This document shows positions 3,886-36,553 of a stretch of 40,958 bases of DNA, in pieces (the stretch's first letter is position 1; each line of letters opens with the position of its first letter). The DNA is from Candidatus Kaiserbacteria bacterium. GTDB taxonomy: Bacteria; Patescibacteriota; Minisyncoccia; Phycocordibacterales; Phycocordibacteraceae. The translations under genes and the position numbers were made by a program. Where the stretch lies: positions 1 through 40,958 of the forward strand of contig JARIGM010000031.1 in assembly GCA_029288865.1 (NCBI GenBank), written 5' to 3'. The notes below the pieces were generated by a model. That model was not told where the DNA came from. It saw only the letters and a program-made list of their open reading frames with translations, and did no database searches.

Positions 3886-4083
3886 ATGCAGCGACCGTCG
3901 TCTACACCAACAACGTCCCGGCTCACACCACTCCTCGGAAGCCGAAGAAGTGTGGTGCCGCATCCAACGTTTGGACCGCCGAAAGACAGGATTCGACTTA
4001 TGGCATCGGCGGCATCAGTGCCACCTGCCACTAGACTGGTCGATTTCGACCCGCCCACCGAGGCCGATTCATCGCAAACTTAA
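3886..4083 (+). CDS. 65-aa hypothetical mini-ORF
   Basis: AGGGGAAATATC-ATG; ORF MQRPSSTPTTSRLTPLLGSRRS...; terminator-like hairpin AGACTCCT...AGGGGTCTTTT downstream. Confidence 0.35.
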   Translation: MQRPSSTPTTSRLTPLLGSRRSVVPHPTFGPPKDRIRLMASAASVPPATRLVDFDPPTEADSSQT

Positions 4084-20103: not shown

Positions 20104-20168
20104 TTACCTCGACGGCATTTTGTTGTATCGTGCTCTATAACGGCTCAGGGTTCTGCCCTGGACTTCAT

Positions 20169-20242
20169 GCGCGGCTAGCTCAGTTGGTTAGAGCGTCCCC
20201 TTGACGTGGGGAAGGTCGGGGATTCGAATTCCTCGCCGCGCA
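20169..20242 (+). tRNA. tRNA-Val(GAC)
   Basis: GCGCGGCTAGCTCAGTTGGTTAGAGCGTCCCCTTGACGTGGGGAAGG...GCCGCGCA. Confidence 0.95.
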
Positions 20243-20247
20243 CCCAA

Positions 20248-21120
20248 ATGGATTCATTGAAACCAGTCATTTTATACCACACGAACTGTCCTGATGGGTT
20301 CGGAGGCGCCTATTCCGCATGGAAGAAGTTCGGTACGGAAGCTCGCTATATTCCGGTCCAGCACGGTCGTCCTGCGCCGTGGGAAGAGCTCGGAGATATC
20401 TCGAAGGCTCACATATACTTCATCGACTTTTGTTACCCTCAAGAAATTATGGATGAATTTATCCGGAAGTCTGGCGCAATGACCGTGCTTGACCACCACG
20501 AGGGCATCCGCGGGGTCGTGGAAAACATTCCCGACCATATTTTCGATAATGATCGCTCAGGTTCGACAATCGCCTGGAGCTATTTCCATCCCGACACATC
20601 GGTGCCGGCTATCCTGAAATATGTCGAGGATGGCGACTTGTATCGATTCACGATGCCTGAATCGCATGCGGTGCTCGCATTCCTCTATGTGCATCCATTC
20701 GAATTCGAGATGTGGGACGAGCTTCGTTCGCAACTTGATAACCCGATTACGTTCGATGATGCGATTGAGATAGGCCGAATCTACGAAAAACATTACGGGA
20801 TCATGACTGACAAGATCGCTGCCGCTGCAGAACTGGTCGATTTCGAAGGCCACACTGTCTATCTTGCATCTACTATTCGTCTCTTTACTTCTGATGTCGG
20901 AAATAAGCTTTGTCGCACACATCCCCCATTCGCACTTATCGCGAGCGTAAAAGCAGATGGCATGCGCGTTTCGTTGCGTGGTGATGGAACAATAGACGTA
21001 TCCGAAATTGCTCGGAAGTATGGCGGTAACGGACACAAGAGTTCTGCAGCATTCTCACTTCCTTTTAATGCGCCGGTGCCGTGGACGCCCGCTGCAAAAA
21101 GTTCCGACGAAGGGATATGA
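20248..21120 (+). CDS. DHH-family phosphoesterase
   Basis: LYHTNCPDGFGGAYSAWK; YFIDFCYP; TVLDHHEG; C-terminal GGNGHKSSAAF. Confidence 0.85.
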   Translation: MDSLKPVILYHTNCPDGFGGAYSAWKKFGTEARYIPVQHGRPAPWEELGDISKAHIYFIDFCYPQEIMDEFIRKSGAMTVLDHHEGIRGVVENIPDHIFDNDRSGSTIAWSYFHPDTSVPAILKYVEDGDLYRFTMPESHAVLAFLYVHPFEFEMWDELRSQLDNPITFDDAIEIGRIYEKHYGIMTDKIAAAAELVDFEGHTVYLASTIRLFTSDVGNKLCRTHPPFALIASVKADGMRVSLRGDGTIDVSEIARKYGGNGHKSSAAFSLPFNAPVPWTPAAKSSDEGI

Positions 21121-22328
21121 GAATCCTCTCCATCGAGACAAGCTGCGACGAGACCGCGATCGCGATTCTCGACTGCCATGGCGATGAGCAATCGGCAAAT
21201 TTTGAAATACGAGCGCATTCTCTCCTTTCTCAAATAGATATCCACCGCGAATTCGGCGGCGTATTCCCTGCTGTGGCGAAACGTGAGCACGCAAAGAATC
21301 TGGTACCGCTTCTGCGCGATACCCTGGAAGAAGCCGAGTTGTTGCACGCAGATACTCAACTCCTTGAAGAGACTGCCCGCGTACGCATCGGCGAGCTCCT
21401 CGCGCGCGAGTCAGACATGGCGGAAGTGTTTATCGAATTTATCTCTGAGGTCGAACGTCCGGATATCGATGCGATCACAGTTACGTATGGACCAGGTCTT
21501 GAGCCCGCGCTGTGGGTTGGGGTGAATTTCGCACAAGCACTTGCCGTCGCGTGGAATGTCCCGCTCGTGCCAGTGAATCACATGGAGGGCCATTTCCTCA
21601 TTGCTCTCACAAAACGTATCGGGGAGCATCACCTCGTGATTGAAGAGGTTGAAGTGCCGATTCTCGGCCTTTTGATTTCAGGCGGTCATACCGAGATAGA
21701 TCTTATGGAACCCTGGCTCACCTATCGCACGCTCGGCCAGACTCGCGACGACGCCGTGGGCGAAGCCTTTGATAAGGTCGCGCGCATGATGGGCCTGCCA
21801 TACCCCGGAGGACCCGAAATCTCTCGCCTTGCAGCACGTGATCGCGAAGACGCGAGCACGAATCCCTACAAGCTGCCACGTCCCATGATCGACACTCCGG
21901 ACTATGATTTTTCATTTAGCGGCCTCAAGACTGCCGTCCTCTACACCATAAAAGATGACCCGGAACTCGCGCAGCATGAGACCGCTGAGGGCGCGACCGC
22001 AGATACGCGCAAGAAGGAGCAGCTCGCACGCGCATTTGAAGACGCTGCTGCAGACGTGCTGGTATCCAAAACGTTGAAAGCGCTCGAAGAGACACAGGCA
22101 CAAGTGCTCGCCATCGGTGGTGGCGTGTCCGCAAACATGCACATTCAGGAACGCTTCCGACAAGCGCTTACCGAAAAACTCCCATACGTCGACCTCCGCG
22201 TTCCACCTGAAGGCCTTACCGGCGACAACGCCATCATGATCGGCATTGCCGGTTTCTATCGCGCACAAGCCGAAAATTTTGCACCCACGGGCTCTCTTAT
22301 TGCCAACGGCAACCTCCGCCTTGCATAA
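21117..22328 (+). CDS. tsaD: tRNA N6-adenosine threonylcarbamoyltransferase
   Basis: MRILSIETSCDETAIAIL; VNHMEGHFL; SGGHTEI; ATGA overlap with the upstream stop. Confidence 0.96.
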   Translation: MRILSIETSCDETAIAILDCHGDEQSANFEIRAHSLLSQIDIHREFGGVFPAVAKREHAKNLVPLLRDTLEEAELLHADTQLLEETARVRIGELLARESDMAEVFIEFISEVERPDIDAITVTYGPGLEPALWVGVNFAQALAVAWNVPLVPVNHMEGHFLIALTKRIGEHHLVIEEVEVPILGLLISGGHTEIDLMEPWLTYRTLGQTRDDAVGEAFDKVARMMGLPYPGGPEISRLAARDREDASTNPYKLPRPMIDTPDYDFSFSGLKTAVLYTIKDDPELAQHETAEGATADTRKKEQLARAFEDAAADVLVSKTLKALEETQAQVLAIGGGVSANMHIQERFRQALTEKLPYVDLRVPPEGLTGDNAIMIGIAGFYRAQAENFAPTGSLIANGNLRLA

Positions 22329-22694: not shown

Positions 22695-25424
22695 ATGGAT
22701 GAGGCACTAGAAAAGTTCCGGAAACCGTACGATCCGGCAAGCACCGAGGCAGGCATTTACAAGGCATGGGAAGAAAGCGGGTACTTCAACCCGGACAATC
22801 TCCCTGCCGATCTGATTGAAGACGGCACCACTGGAAGCGGCAAACCGTTCACTATTGTCATGCCACCCCCAAACGCGAACGGTAGCCTCCATGCCGGACA
22901 CGCGCTGTTCGTGACCCTTGAAGACCTCTTCACGCGCTTCAAGCGCATGCAGGGATACAAAGCCCTCTGGCTTCCCGGCGCAGACCATGCCGGATTCGAG
23001 ACCCAGGTGGTGTACGAAAAGCAGCTTGAGAAAGAAGGCCGCTCCCGCTTCAATATGGATCCGCAGGATCTGTACAACGAGATCTACGATTTCACCATCA
23101 AGAACAAAGCGCACATGGAAGACCAGGTGCGTTCACTGGGTGCATCCTGCGATTGGTCTCGCGAGAAGTTCACGCTCGATCCCGAGATCGTGGAGAAAGT
23201 GCAAGCAACATTCATCAAGATGTATCAGGACGAGCTCGTCTATCGCGGTAAGCGCATCGTGAACTGGTGTTCGAAGCATCAGACTTCCCTCTCGGATGTC
23301 GAGACGGAGAGCGTCGAGGAACCATCAAAGCTTTACTATTTCAAATACGGTCCGTTCGAGATAGCGACCGCGCGTCCTGAGACCAAGTTCGGCGATAAGT
23401 ATGTCGTCATGCATCCGGAAGATGCACGCTATGCGCAGTACGAGCACGGCCAGAAGCTCACCGTCGAATGGATCAATGGCCCGCTCGAAGCAACGATCAT
23501 CAAAGATCCGGTCATTGATATGGAATTCGGTACCGGCGTGATGACGATCACACCATGGCACTCACAAGTGGACTTCGAGCTCGCGAATAAGCACGGCCTC
23601 GATATGGAACAGATCATCGACTGGCGTGGCAAGCTCCTCCCGATCGCGCAGGAATTCGCAGGCATGAAGATCACCGAAGCGCGCGAGAAGATCGTCGAGA
23701 AGCTCCAAGCAAAGGGTCTCGTCACACGTATCGAGGAGAACTATAAGCACGTCGTGAAGCGCTGCTATAAGTGCAACACGCTCATCGAGCCACAGGTGAA
23801 GGACCAGTGGTTCGTAAAGATGGCCCCGCTCGCACGCATGGCACTCGACGCATCTGATCGCGGTGATTTTAAATTCATTCCCGAGCACGAGGAAAAGGTC
23901 TTCCGTTACTGGATGGAGAACGCACTCGACTGGAACGTCTCGCGACAGATCATCTGGGGTATTCCGATCCCTGCGCACTTCTGTGTGACCTGCGAGACGC
24001 CGAAGGTGGGCGGCGTGGTTGAATCCAAGTGGTTTATCGTACGCCACGGCGAGACTGAGATGAATCTCAAGCGTCAGATCCAAGGCCAGAATGATTCCCC
24101 ACTCACAGAAACCGGTCGTGCCCAGATCGAGAAGAGCGCGAAAGAACTCGCGAAACACAATATCGACCTGATCATCAGCTCAGACCTTGGCCGCACCAAA
24201 GAGACTTCAGAGATTATCGCGAAAGCGACAGGCGCAGAGATCCTGTACGAACCAGCGCTCCGCGAACGCAGCTACGGGCCGCATGAAGGAAAAAGCTACG
24301 ATGAAATCGATCATGTTCATAGAAATCTGAACGGATATCACGAGTCTGTTGAAGGGGTTGAGGCATACATCGACGTCGAGAACCGTGCATGGAGCGCATT
24401 CGAAGAATATCGGAAGACGCACCGAGCGAAAAATGTCGTTATCGTGACGCATGGCGGCGTGATGCGCACGCTCCGTCGCCGACTCTATGACCTTTCGCCC
24501 GAAGAAGCTATGGATGCAGAAGGAATGAAAAACGGTGAATACATAGCGCTCGATCACCTCGACAGCGCATGCGCGAACTGCGGCGGAGAGCTTTTCAAGG
24601 CTGACACTGATACATTCGACACATGGTTCTCATCGGGCCAATGGCCACTCCTCACGACTGGCTTTGATCCTGCAGGAGAAAGCAGCGTCGACTTCCCTAC
24701 CTATTACCCAACGGACGTGATGGAAACCGGCCGGGACCTCGTGTTCAAGTGGGTGCCGCGCATGATCATCTTCGGTCTTTATCTCGCACAGAAGGCGCCA
24801 TTCCATACGATCTACCTGCACGGTCTCGTAAATGACGCGAACGGCAAGAAGATGAGCAAATCCAAAGGCAACGTCGTGAATCCGCTCGATCTCACCAGCA
24901 AGTACGGCACCGATGCGCTTCGTATGGCGCTCGTCGTGGGAAATACGCCAGGCACTGACCTCGCACTACGCGAAGATAAAGTAAAAGGTTACAAACACTT
25001 TGCGAATAAGATCTGGAACATCGCGCGCTTCGTGCTTGAAAACACGTACGACGCAGACCTGGATGCTCCGCTGAGCGATTTCGATGCGCTCATGCTTCGT
25101 GAGTTCGAAGAGATGGCAGCAGACGTAACCCGAGATCTCGAAGAATACCGTCCGCATCTTGCTGCAGAAAAAGCGTACCACTATGTCTGGCACAAGTTCG
25201 CCGATGAGATTCTTGAGGCGTCCAAGCCTATCCTTGCAGATTCGGACACGCCTGATGCAGTTGCATCGCGTAAGGCACTGCTACGCGGCCTCCTCGCGGG
25301 CTCACTCAAGCTCCTGCATCCATTCATGCCATTCGTAACAGAAGAGATCTGGCAGAGCATCCCAGGCACTACAAACATGCTCATGGTTTCTTCGTGGCCT
25401 GCTCGCTCGAGTGAAAAATCATAG
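22695..25424 (+). CDS. valS: valyl-tRNA synthetase with internal histidine phosphatase domain
   Basis: PPPNANGSLHAGHAL; CP1 editing region (TARPETKFGDKYVVMHPEDARY); DTFDTWFSSGQWPL; KKMSKSKGNVVNP. Internal WFIVRHGETEMN...SSDLGRTKET...HGGVMR. Confidence 0.95.
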   Translation: MDEALEKFRKPYDPASTEAGIYKAWEESGYFNPDNLPADLIEDGTTGSGKPFTIVMPPPNANGSLHAGHALFVTLEDLFTRFKRMQGYKALWLPGADHAGFETQVVYEKQLEKEGRSRFNMDPQDLYNEIYDFTIKNKAHMEDQVRSLGASCDWSREKFTLDPEIVEKVQATFIKMYQDELVYRGKRIVNWCSKHQTSLSDVETESVEEPSKLYYFKYGPFEIATARPETKFGDKYVVMHPEDARYAQYEHGQKLTVEWINGPLEATIIKDPVIDMEFGTGVMTITPWHSQVDFELANKHGLDMEQIIDWRGKLLPIAQEFAGMKITEAREKIVEKLQAKGLVTRIEENYKHVVKRCYKCNTLIEPQVKDQWFVKMAPLARMALDASDRGDFKFIPEHEEKVFRYWMENALDWNVSRQIIWGIPIPAHFCVTCETPKVGGVVESKWFIVRHGETEMNLKRQIQGQNDSPLTETGRAQIEKSAKELAKHNIDLIISSDLGRTKETSEIIAKATGAEILYEPALRERSYGPHEGKSYDEIDHVHRNLNGYHESVEGVEAYIDVENRAWSAFEEYRKTHRAKNVVIVTHGGVMRTLRRRLYDLSPEEAMDAEGMKNGEYIALDHLDSACANCGGELFKADTDTFDTWFSSGQWPLLTTGFDPAGESSVDFPTYYPTDVMETGRDLVFKWVPRMIIFGLYLAQKAPFHTIYLHGLVNDANGKKMSKSKGNVVNPLDLTSKYGTDALRMALVVGNTPGTDLALREDKVKGYKHFANKIWNIARFVLENTYDADLDAPLSDFDALMLREFEEMAADVTRDLEEYRPHLAAEKAYHYVWHKFADEILEASKPILADSDTPDAVASRKALLRGLLAGSLKLLHPFMPFVTEEIWQSIPGTTNMLMVSSWPARSSEKS

Positions 25425-36152: not shown

Positions 36153-36190
36153 AAATGAAAAATGCCTGCGTTAGCAGGCATTTTTCATTT
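36153..36190. terminator. terminator hairpin between rnpB and the O-antigen-ligase-like gene
   Basis: AAATGAAAAATGCCTGC / GCAGGCATTTTTCATTT, 17 bp. Confidence 0.75.
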
Positions 36191-36194
36191 AGGT

Positions 36195-36535
36195 ACCGAT
36201 CCGTAAGCCGAATTCTGTCGTGGACGATCATCTATCTGGGACGCTTGTTACCAAGCGCCTCGAGCGGCGCTCCTGGAAAACCAGGCACGGCCTTGCATCG
36301 AAGTAAGGATTTAGCCGTTTCACCCACTCCGTTACCGGAGCGACTCATCCTTCCTAGTCGAAACCAAGGAGGATGCTTTCGTCTTTCGTTGAAAGCGTCT
36401 CTGCTCGCACCTCGCGCCTTACGGCGGACGGGCGTTACCCGCTACCCTTCTGCAGCACAGCAAGCCGTGCTGCCGATGTTCGGACTTTCCTCTCTCGCAT
36501 CCCTTCCGGAATGCAGAGCGATCATCTAGATCGGT
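36195..36535 (-). ncRNA. rnpB: RNase P RNA (class A)
   Basis: Minus strand contains GAGAGGAAAGTCCGAACATC and ACAGAATTCGGCTTACGGATCGGT; terminal P1 pairing ACCGATC/GATCGGT. Confidence 0.93.
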
Positions 36536-36553
36536 TCGTGGATTATACCACGA

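Follow-up and report, generated by a model that had tools for sequence, protein, structure and literature searches.

A histidine phosphatase domain inside the CP2 knuckle loop of isoleucyl- and valyl-tRNA synthetases

In the textbook view, isoleucyl- and valyl-tRNA synthetases (IleRS and ValRS) make do with synthesis and editing sites alone. The valS gene described here raises the question of what a phosphatase is doing in the interior of such an enzyme. The gene lies in a stretch of 40,958 nucleotides (the window) and is read as one open reading frame without interruption. The initial annotation had proposed that a histidine phosphatase (HP) is nested in ValRS, two enzymes sharing one frame, and Pfam bears this out: tRNA-synt_1 is split in two around His_Phos_1, and Anticodon_1 is also present. 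The features of the locus are the following.

22695 to 25424, plus strand: valS, ValRS open reading frame of 909 aa with nested phosphatase (ORF, Pfam, NCBIfam)
22755 to 23996, plus strand: ValRS catalytic core, part 1, with HAGH at aa 66 and the CP1 editing domain (Pfam, motifs)
23982 to 23993, plus strand: first Cys pair of the CP2 knuckle, C430-x-x-C433 (residues read)
24033 to 24554, plus strand: nested HP domain PF00300, aa 447-620, with R450, H451, R500, E524 and H586 (Pfam, AlphaFold2, Foldseek, residues)
24549 to 24962, plus strand: ValRS catalytic core, part 2, with DTFDTWFSS and KMSKS (Pfam, motifs)
24570 to 24581, plus strand: second Cys pair of the CP2 knuckle, C626-x-x-C629 (residues read)
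24849 to 24863, plus strand: KMSKS signature, aa 719-723 (residues read)
25083 to 25412, plus strand: anticodon-binding domain PF08264, aa 797-906 (Pfam)

By profile and motifs, the host protein is identified as a valyl-tRNA synthetase. It scores 743.7 bits against the NCBIfam valS profile TIGR00422 (cut-off 612.1), in two pieces, and both charging signatures, HAGH and KMSKS, are present. ValRS sequences with about 57-71% core identity occur in records labelled Vogel-, Taylor-, Yonath-, Nomura-, Wolfe- and Kaiserbacteria, which probably places the window in the Parcubacteria/Paceibacteria branch of the ultra-small Patescibacteria. In an alignment of 33 ValRS rows, three HP-bearing ones included, the CP1 editing residues R227, P228, E229, T230 and D293 are invariant, and in HP-bearing ValRS and IleRS alike the host keeps its synthesis and editing motifs intact. 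A role of the HP as a replacement for editing was considered and is not supported, given this conservation. At 23562-23573 the window protein reads HSQVDFE where its relatives have the consensus HDxxDFE; Asp293 is retained. The window also holds seven tRNA genes, among them a tRNA-Val (GAC) at 20168-20246 that shares the strand of valS and precedes the gene by about 2.4 kb. A frame at 21081-22328, between this tRNA and valS, appears by eye to be TsaD-like (tRNA t6A), and a class A RNase P RNA is located at 36189-36537 on the minus strand.

The insert itself is confirmed as a complete branch-1 histidine phosphatase by profile, residues and predicted fold. The PF00300 match has an E-value of 6.5e-46 and 156.9 bits (cut-off 21.7), and it is nearly full length, covering profile positions 2-180 of 194. 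The hallmark residues that the initial annotation had described as intact are all found: R450 and H451 of the RHG motif, the second Arg R500, the acidic E524 and the second His H586. Modelled alone with AlphaFold2, the insert adopts the HP fold (pLDDT 87.9, pTM 0.87), and a Foldseek search with this model gives TM-scores of about 0.85 to PhoE, PspA and Rv2419c. The AlphaFold model of the whole ValRS is confident in the core and poor in the insert region, where the alignment contained few HP rows. Profiles of narrower families remain below their cut-offs for the window protein: the alpha-ribazole phosphatase CobC (TIGR03162) at 116.4 versus 162.9 bits, the phosphoserine phosphatase PspA (NF045917) at 65.6 versus 350 bits, and IleRS with a GNAT domain (NF040702) at 174.7 versus 1999 bits, with no GNAT domain reported by Pfam.

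The insert was also said to split the CxxC...CxxC zinc element, and the two Cys pairs of the CP2 knuckle do flank the HP domain on either side. ValRS relatives with a four-Cys knuckle carry a loop of about 30 residues at this site; in the five closest congener ValRS (72-75% identity in the N-terminal core) the loop has 23-29 residues and no Cys. From this comparison, the recipient of the HP appears to have been a knuckle-type ValRS, with the domain entering midway through the knuckle. That the arrangement is an artefact of assembly or binning in the window is suggested by one fact, that this exact ValRS has been seen in no second genome; both junctions are in frame, however, and they lie in the loop that holds an HP in other ValRS and in dozens of IleRS from separate assemblies, so that a chimeric assembly is very unlikely. 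The GC content of the insert (52.8%) matches that of the window (52.3%), and the source genome, of which the window is contig C26 (842 kb in total), is rated 100% complete and 0.02% contaminated. An artefact can be set aside with near certainty.

How far the arrangement extends was read from the synthetases of the same genome and of its relatives. Three HP domains are found in the window genome: one in ValRS, one in IleRS and one in a stand-alone gene; the PF00300 search finds none in LeuRS or in any other protein of that genome. The IleRS is a protein of 1141 aa, and its HP occupies the loop that corresponds to the ValRS site, past the GSxxEL motif and ahead of the HxPYID segment. Many frames of 1100-1250 aa came up when 39 relatives were searched in the same way, and those that were read are IleRS. 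For a census unbiased with respect to HP, the IleRS profile TIGR00392 was run over 66 genomes of the class and matched in 65. Counted from the listed profile pieces, 40 of these IleRS have a gap in CP2, 21 have none and 4 are broken at contig ends; all 40 gapped proteins were read, and every one contains an HP. Outside the class, a CP2 gap with an HP was found in three of 66 IleRS (G090, G106, G098), and in one further IleRS, from G083, the HP is located after KMSKS. Four IleRS of family f83 (L061-L064, from G127, G217, G141 and G197) carry two HPs in tandem in frames of about 1440-1530 aa, with all catalytic residues retained.

An HP-bearing ValRS was seen in five genomes only (G000, G033, G220, G041, G083), each from another family, and the ValRS of G083 has two HPs in tandem. 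Among 93 congeneric genomes probed with the window insert, the ValRS insert was found in the window genome alone; the best other match within the genus has 40% identity and is situated inside an IleRS, and a small number of weaker matches fall in shorter frames of 493-752 aa, which stand outside this classification. None of the 25 congener ValRS that were read contains an HP. IleRS without an HP also occur inside the genus (L127-L129 and L271-L274, from G005, G017, G019 and G007), beside HP-bearing congeners. The HP insert is common in IleRS of the class, rare outside it, and far commoner in IleRS than in ValRS, and the CP2 loop site is common to the inserts of both synthetases across many lineages. 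The initial annotation treated the insert as a feature of ValRS; the feature is real, but its main host is IleRS, that of the window genome included, and the ValRS case is sporadic.

The conservation of the active site speaks to whether the domain works. Thirty-five inserts (34 from IleRS of the class and that of the G083 IleRS) were found through the IleRS search and not through an HP search, and the R-H-R-E/D-H set is retained in all of them, in the patterns R-H-G-R-E-H (25), R-H-G-R-D-H (6) and R-H-A-R-E-H (4). Among 44 main-group IleRS inserts the mean pairwise identity is 35%, and of seven invariant columns five are the active-site R, H, R, E and H. Invariance concentrated in catalytic positions, with the rest diverged, argues for an active enzyme rather than a spacer. 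Relatives that keep the insert and lose its catalytic residues were also looked for, and none was found: all full-length fused domains retain them. The rapid divergence of the remainder of the domain is what a structural spacer or a relic devoid of catalysis would lead one to expect, yet given the intact catalytic residues such a reading is hardly credible. Judged from these residues, the nested HP is very probably an active phosphatase. In one stand-alone HP of the genus (L012, in G012), the second catalytic His is replaced by Ser; no full-length fused copy shows this.

The history of the module seems to be one of movement. On a tree of the insert-free IleRS core, a quick tree, the presence of the HP requires at least 16 changes, 11 of them forced by well-supported branches. 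Within the genus, the IleRS core of G002, which bears an HP, groups with those of the HP-free G005, G017 and G019, while its HP groups with HPs of the other IleRS core type; since the two groupings disagree, the module seems to have been exchanged between synthetases. Taken as phylogenetic patterns, these data point to an HP module repeatedly gained, lost or exchanged across much of the class. Measured by path in the HP tree, the rows closest to the window ValRS insert belong to stand-alone HPs; support for that branch is weak. Two particular origins of this insert were tried: a recent copy of the IleRS insert of its own genus was rejected (AU p 0.006), and a recent copy of the stand-alone HP of its own genome (L003) gave AU p 0.025. 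The HP tree suggests several groups of inserts, and the AU tests reject none of the single clades (all ValRS inserts, p 0.33; all IleRS inserts, 0.22; all fused HPs, 0.49), so that no number of independent insertions is claimed.

Further information may be found in the surroundings of ileS, which were read for 19 IleRS of the class with neither HP nor Nudix domain, 16 outside the class and 4 insert-less congeners. In two class genomes whose IleRS has no insert (G334 and G313), a stand-alone HP gene lies directly upstream with its end overlapping the ATG of ileS, and the HP tree places both of these HPs within the main IleRS-insert group (98/89 support). In two others (G331 and G352), an HP gene on the same strand is located about 0.9 and 1.8 kb upstream, and these HPs are placed at the base of the same group; other frames intervene, and only G334 and G313 were counted as strong cases of adjacency. 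Within the stretch read, no HP was found near ileS in any of the 16 IleRS outside the class or the 4 insert-less congeners. By eye, a T-box-like leader, GGTGGTACCACG, appears to lie in G331 (L258) between the HP gene, which ends at 4016, and ileS. Fusion in most genomes with overlapping genes elsewhere is the usual mark of joint function, and a joint function of HP and IleRS is suggested on these grounds.

These observations bear on the reading in which a metabolic phosphatase of PhoE, GpmB or CobC type, active and unrelated to charging, is simply parked where a highly expressed protein of a streamlined genome offers a permissive loop. The nearest solved structures are indeed broad metabolic phosphatases, the CP2 loop is surface-like and variable in length, and the insert is absent from many congeners. 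However, IleRS and ValRS have been used repeatedly and the module has been exchanged between IleRS lineages, a free HP gene overlaps ileS in two insert-less genomes, and the window genome keeps its HPs in IleRS, ValRS and one stand-alone gene, with LeuRS free of them. Parking remains an unlikely reading, with a minor share of the probability. The initial annotation had linked the domain to aminoacylation, naming a phosphorylated inhibitor, a tRNA 3'-phosphate or a phosphorylated amino-acid analogue as conceivable substrates, and that link, though not any one of these substrates, has become likelier through the restriction to IleRS and ValRS, the reuse of one loop and the adjacent HP genes; against it count several insert-less genomes with no neighbouring HP. 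A functional tie of the HP to Ile/Val charging is thus likely, and the domain probably does an unrecognised job linked to the charging of these tRNAs. The insert is not essential for charging itself, since 21 of 65 class IleRS and the 25 congener ValRS do without it.

The best explanation, advanced at slightly less than even confidence, is that the nested HP is an active phosphatase, bound by its tether to Ile/Val charging, whose substrate is a small phosphorylated molecule, perhaps of nucleotide type. A portable, independently folding HP would have been spliced into the CP2 knuckle loop of two class Ia enzymes of Patescibacteria, IleRS and ValRS; the usual phospho-histidine intermediate would form on H451; the domain would dephosphorylate a small molecule that arises at the synthetase or is brought to it; and tethering would hold this clean-up beside the charging site. 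That the substrate is a small nucleotide-type molecule is, taken by itself, a more tentative proposal. The fold does not reveal it, because the substrates of the HP superfamily are very varied. A wider version, speculative and somewhat doubtful, would have a mobile HP module repeatedly entering IleRS and ValRS as a third activity that clears a phosphorylated by-product or inhibitor, an Ile/Val-specific quality control or self-protection not known in other bacteria.

Three other activities may be weighed against a tethered small-molecule phosphatase. The HP could be a regulatory protein phosphatase that dephosphorylates the synthetase or a partner, which would lift an inhibitory phosphorylation and adjust Ile/Val charging. 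Both small-molecule and protein phosphatases occur among HP families, and SixA and PGAM5 are phosphoprotein phosphatases of branch 1 (PMC12934123). A tether in cis would suit self-regulation, but structure matches of the isolated domain are to small-molecule phosphatases first. We know of no phosphorylation of IleRS or ValRS in these bacteria, which also counts against regulation, and this role is considered improbable. Removal of a 3'-phosphate or a similar mark from tRNA-Ile or tRNA-Val before charging would account for the tie to tRNA-binding enzymes; it leaves the Ile/Val restriction unexplained, however, and with no sign of RNA specificity in the sequence it is less probable again. The simple logic of product removal favours a pyrophosphatase that takes away PPi (or AMP) and pulls aminoacylation forward. 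The window genome already has a soluble PPase, though, and PPi gives no reason for the restriction to Ile and Val; a pyrophosphatase role is accordingly very improbable. The same role was also sought through co-occurrence, and a count of soluble PPases alone showed no correlation: one is present in 4 of 20 genomes with the HP versus 6 of 20 without, and in 8 of 8 on both sides within the genus. We infer that PPi is a less likely substrate than a phosphorylated inhibitor or a by-product of nucleotide type.

Other enzymes inserted in IleRS give a hint in the direction of the tethered clean-up activity. The IleRS of G318 (L322) has no HP and contains a Nudix hydrolase domain in its CP1 region (aa 225-343, E 6.6e-24), and that of G083 (L316) has a GNAT-like domain at aa 666-764, before KMSKS (E about 1e-6), in addition to its HP at aa 918-1069. 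Pfam finds no other inserted domain in long IleRS without an HP, and a search of 188 class genomes for the G318 Nudix domain located it inside a long frame in G318 alone. Small-molecule clean-up enzymes may therefore be what is inserted in IleRS; the Nudix insert and the GNAT insert were each seen once, and serve as leads, not tests.

A conserved and active-looking HP in IleRS and ValRS points to branched-chain tRNA-charging chemistry that is missing from standard models. The proposal can be tested directly: the catalytic residue has been identified, and natural controls are available in congeners that carry or lack the insert (G005, G017, G019 and G007 have IleRS without it).

Compared with known systems, the window protein has in common with bacterial ValRS and IleRS (TIGR00422, TIGR00392; Thermus ValRS 1gax, IleRS 1ile) the core, the CP1 editing domain, the CP2 knuckle and the anticodon domain, and differs from them by some 180 aa of phosphatase in the knuckle loop. 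A PDB sequence search gave no combination of synthetase and HP among the matches listed, and a literature search found no paper on IleRS or ValRS with an internal HP. The insert shares its fold and all catalytic residues with PhoE-like branch-1 HPs (1h2e), PspA (4ij5) and Rv2419c (4qih); these are stand-alone enzymes with 28-31% identity to it, and their substrates cannot be transferred. Mycobacterial MutT1 (Nudix and HP) likewise joins a branch-1 HP to a nucleotide-handling domain, but end to end and in no synthetase, whereas the HP of the window is nested. The HP domain of MutT1 has been described as of unknown activity (PMC11784022), and with HP families so varied, family membership gives no substrate. 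The BEAN and HABAS insertions of RNA polymerase, which are polyphyletic (PMC11515920), likewise show one domain type entering a universal enzyme repeatedly, at a small number of sites; those are lineage-specific insertional domains of a polymerase, and here it is a phosphatase in a synthetase. IleRS with an N-acetyltransferase domain (NF040702) is a precedent for an extra enzyme domain in IleRS, in that case an acetyltransferase and not a phosphatase. Synthetases with extra domains are already known, and an HP nested in IleRS and ValRS is a new addition to them.
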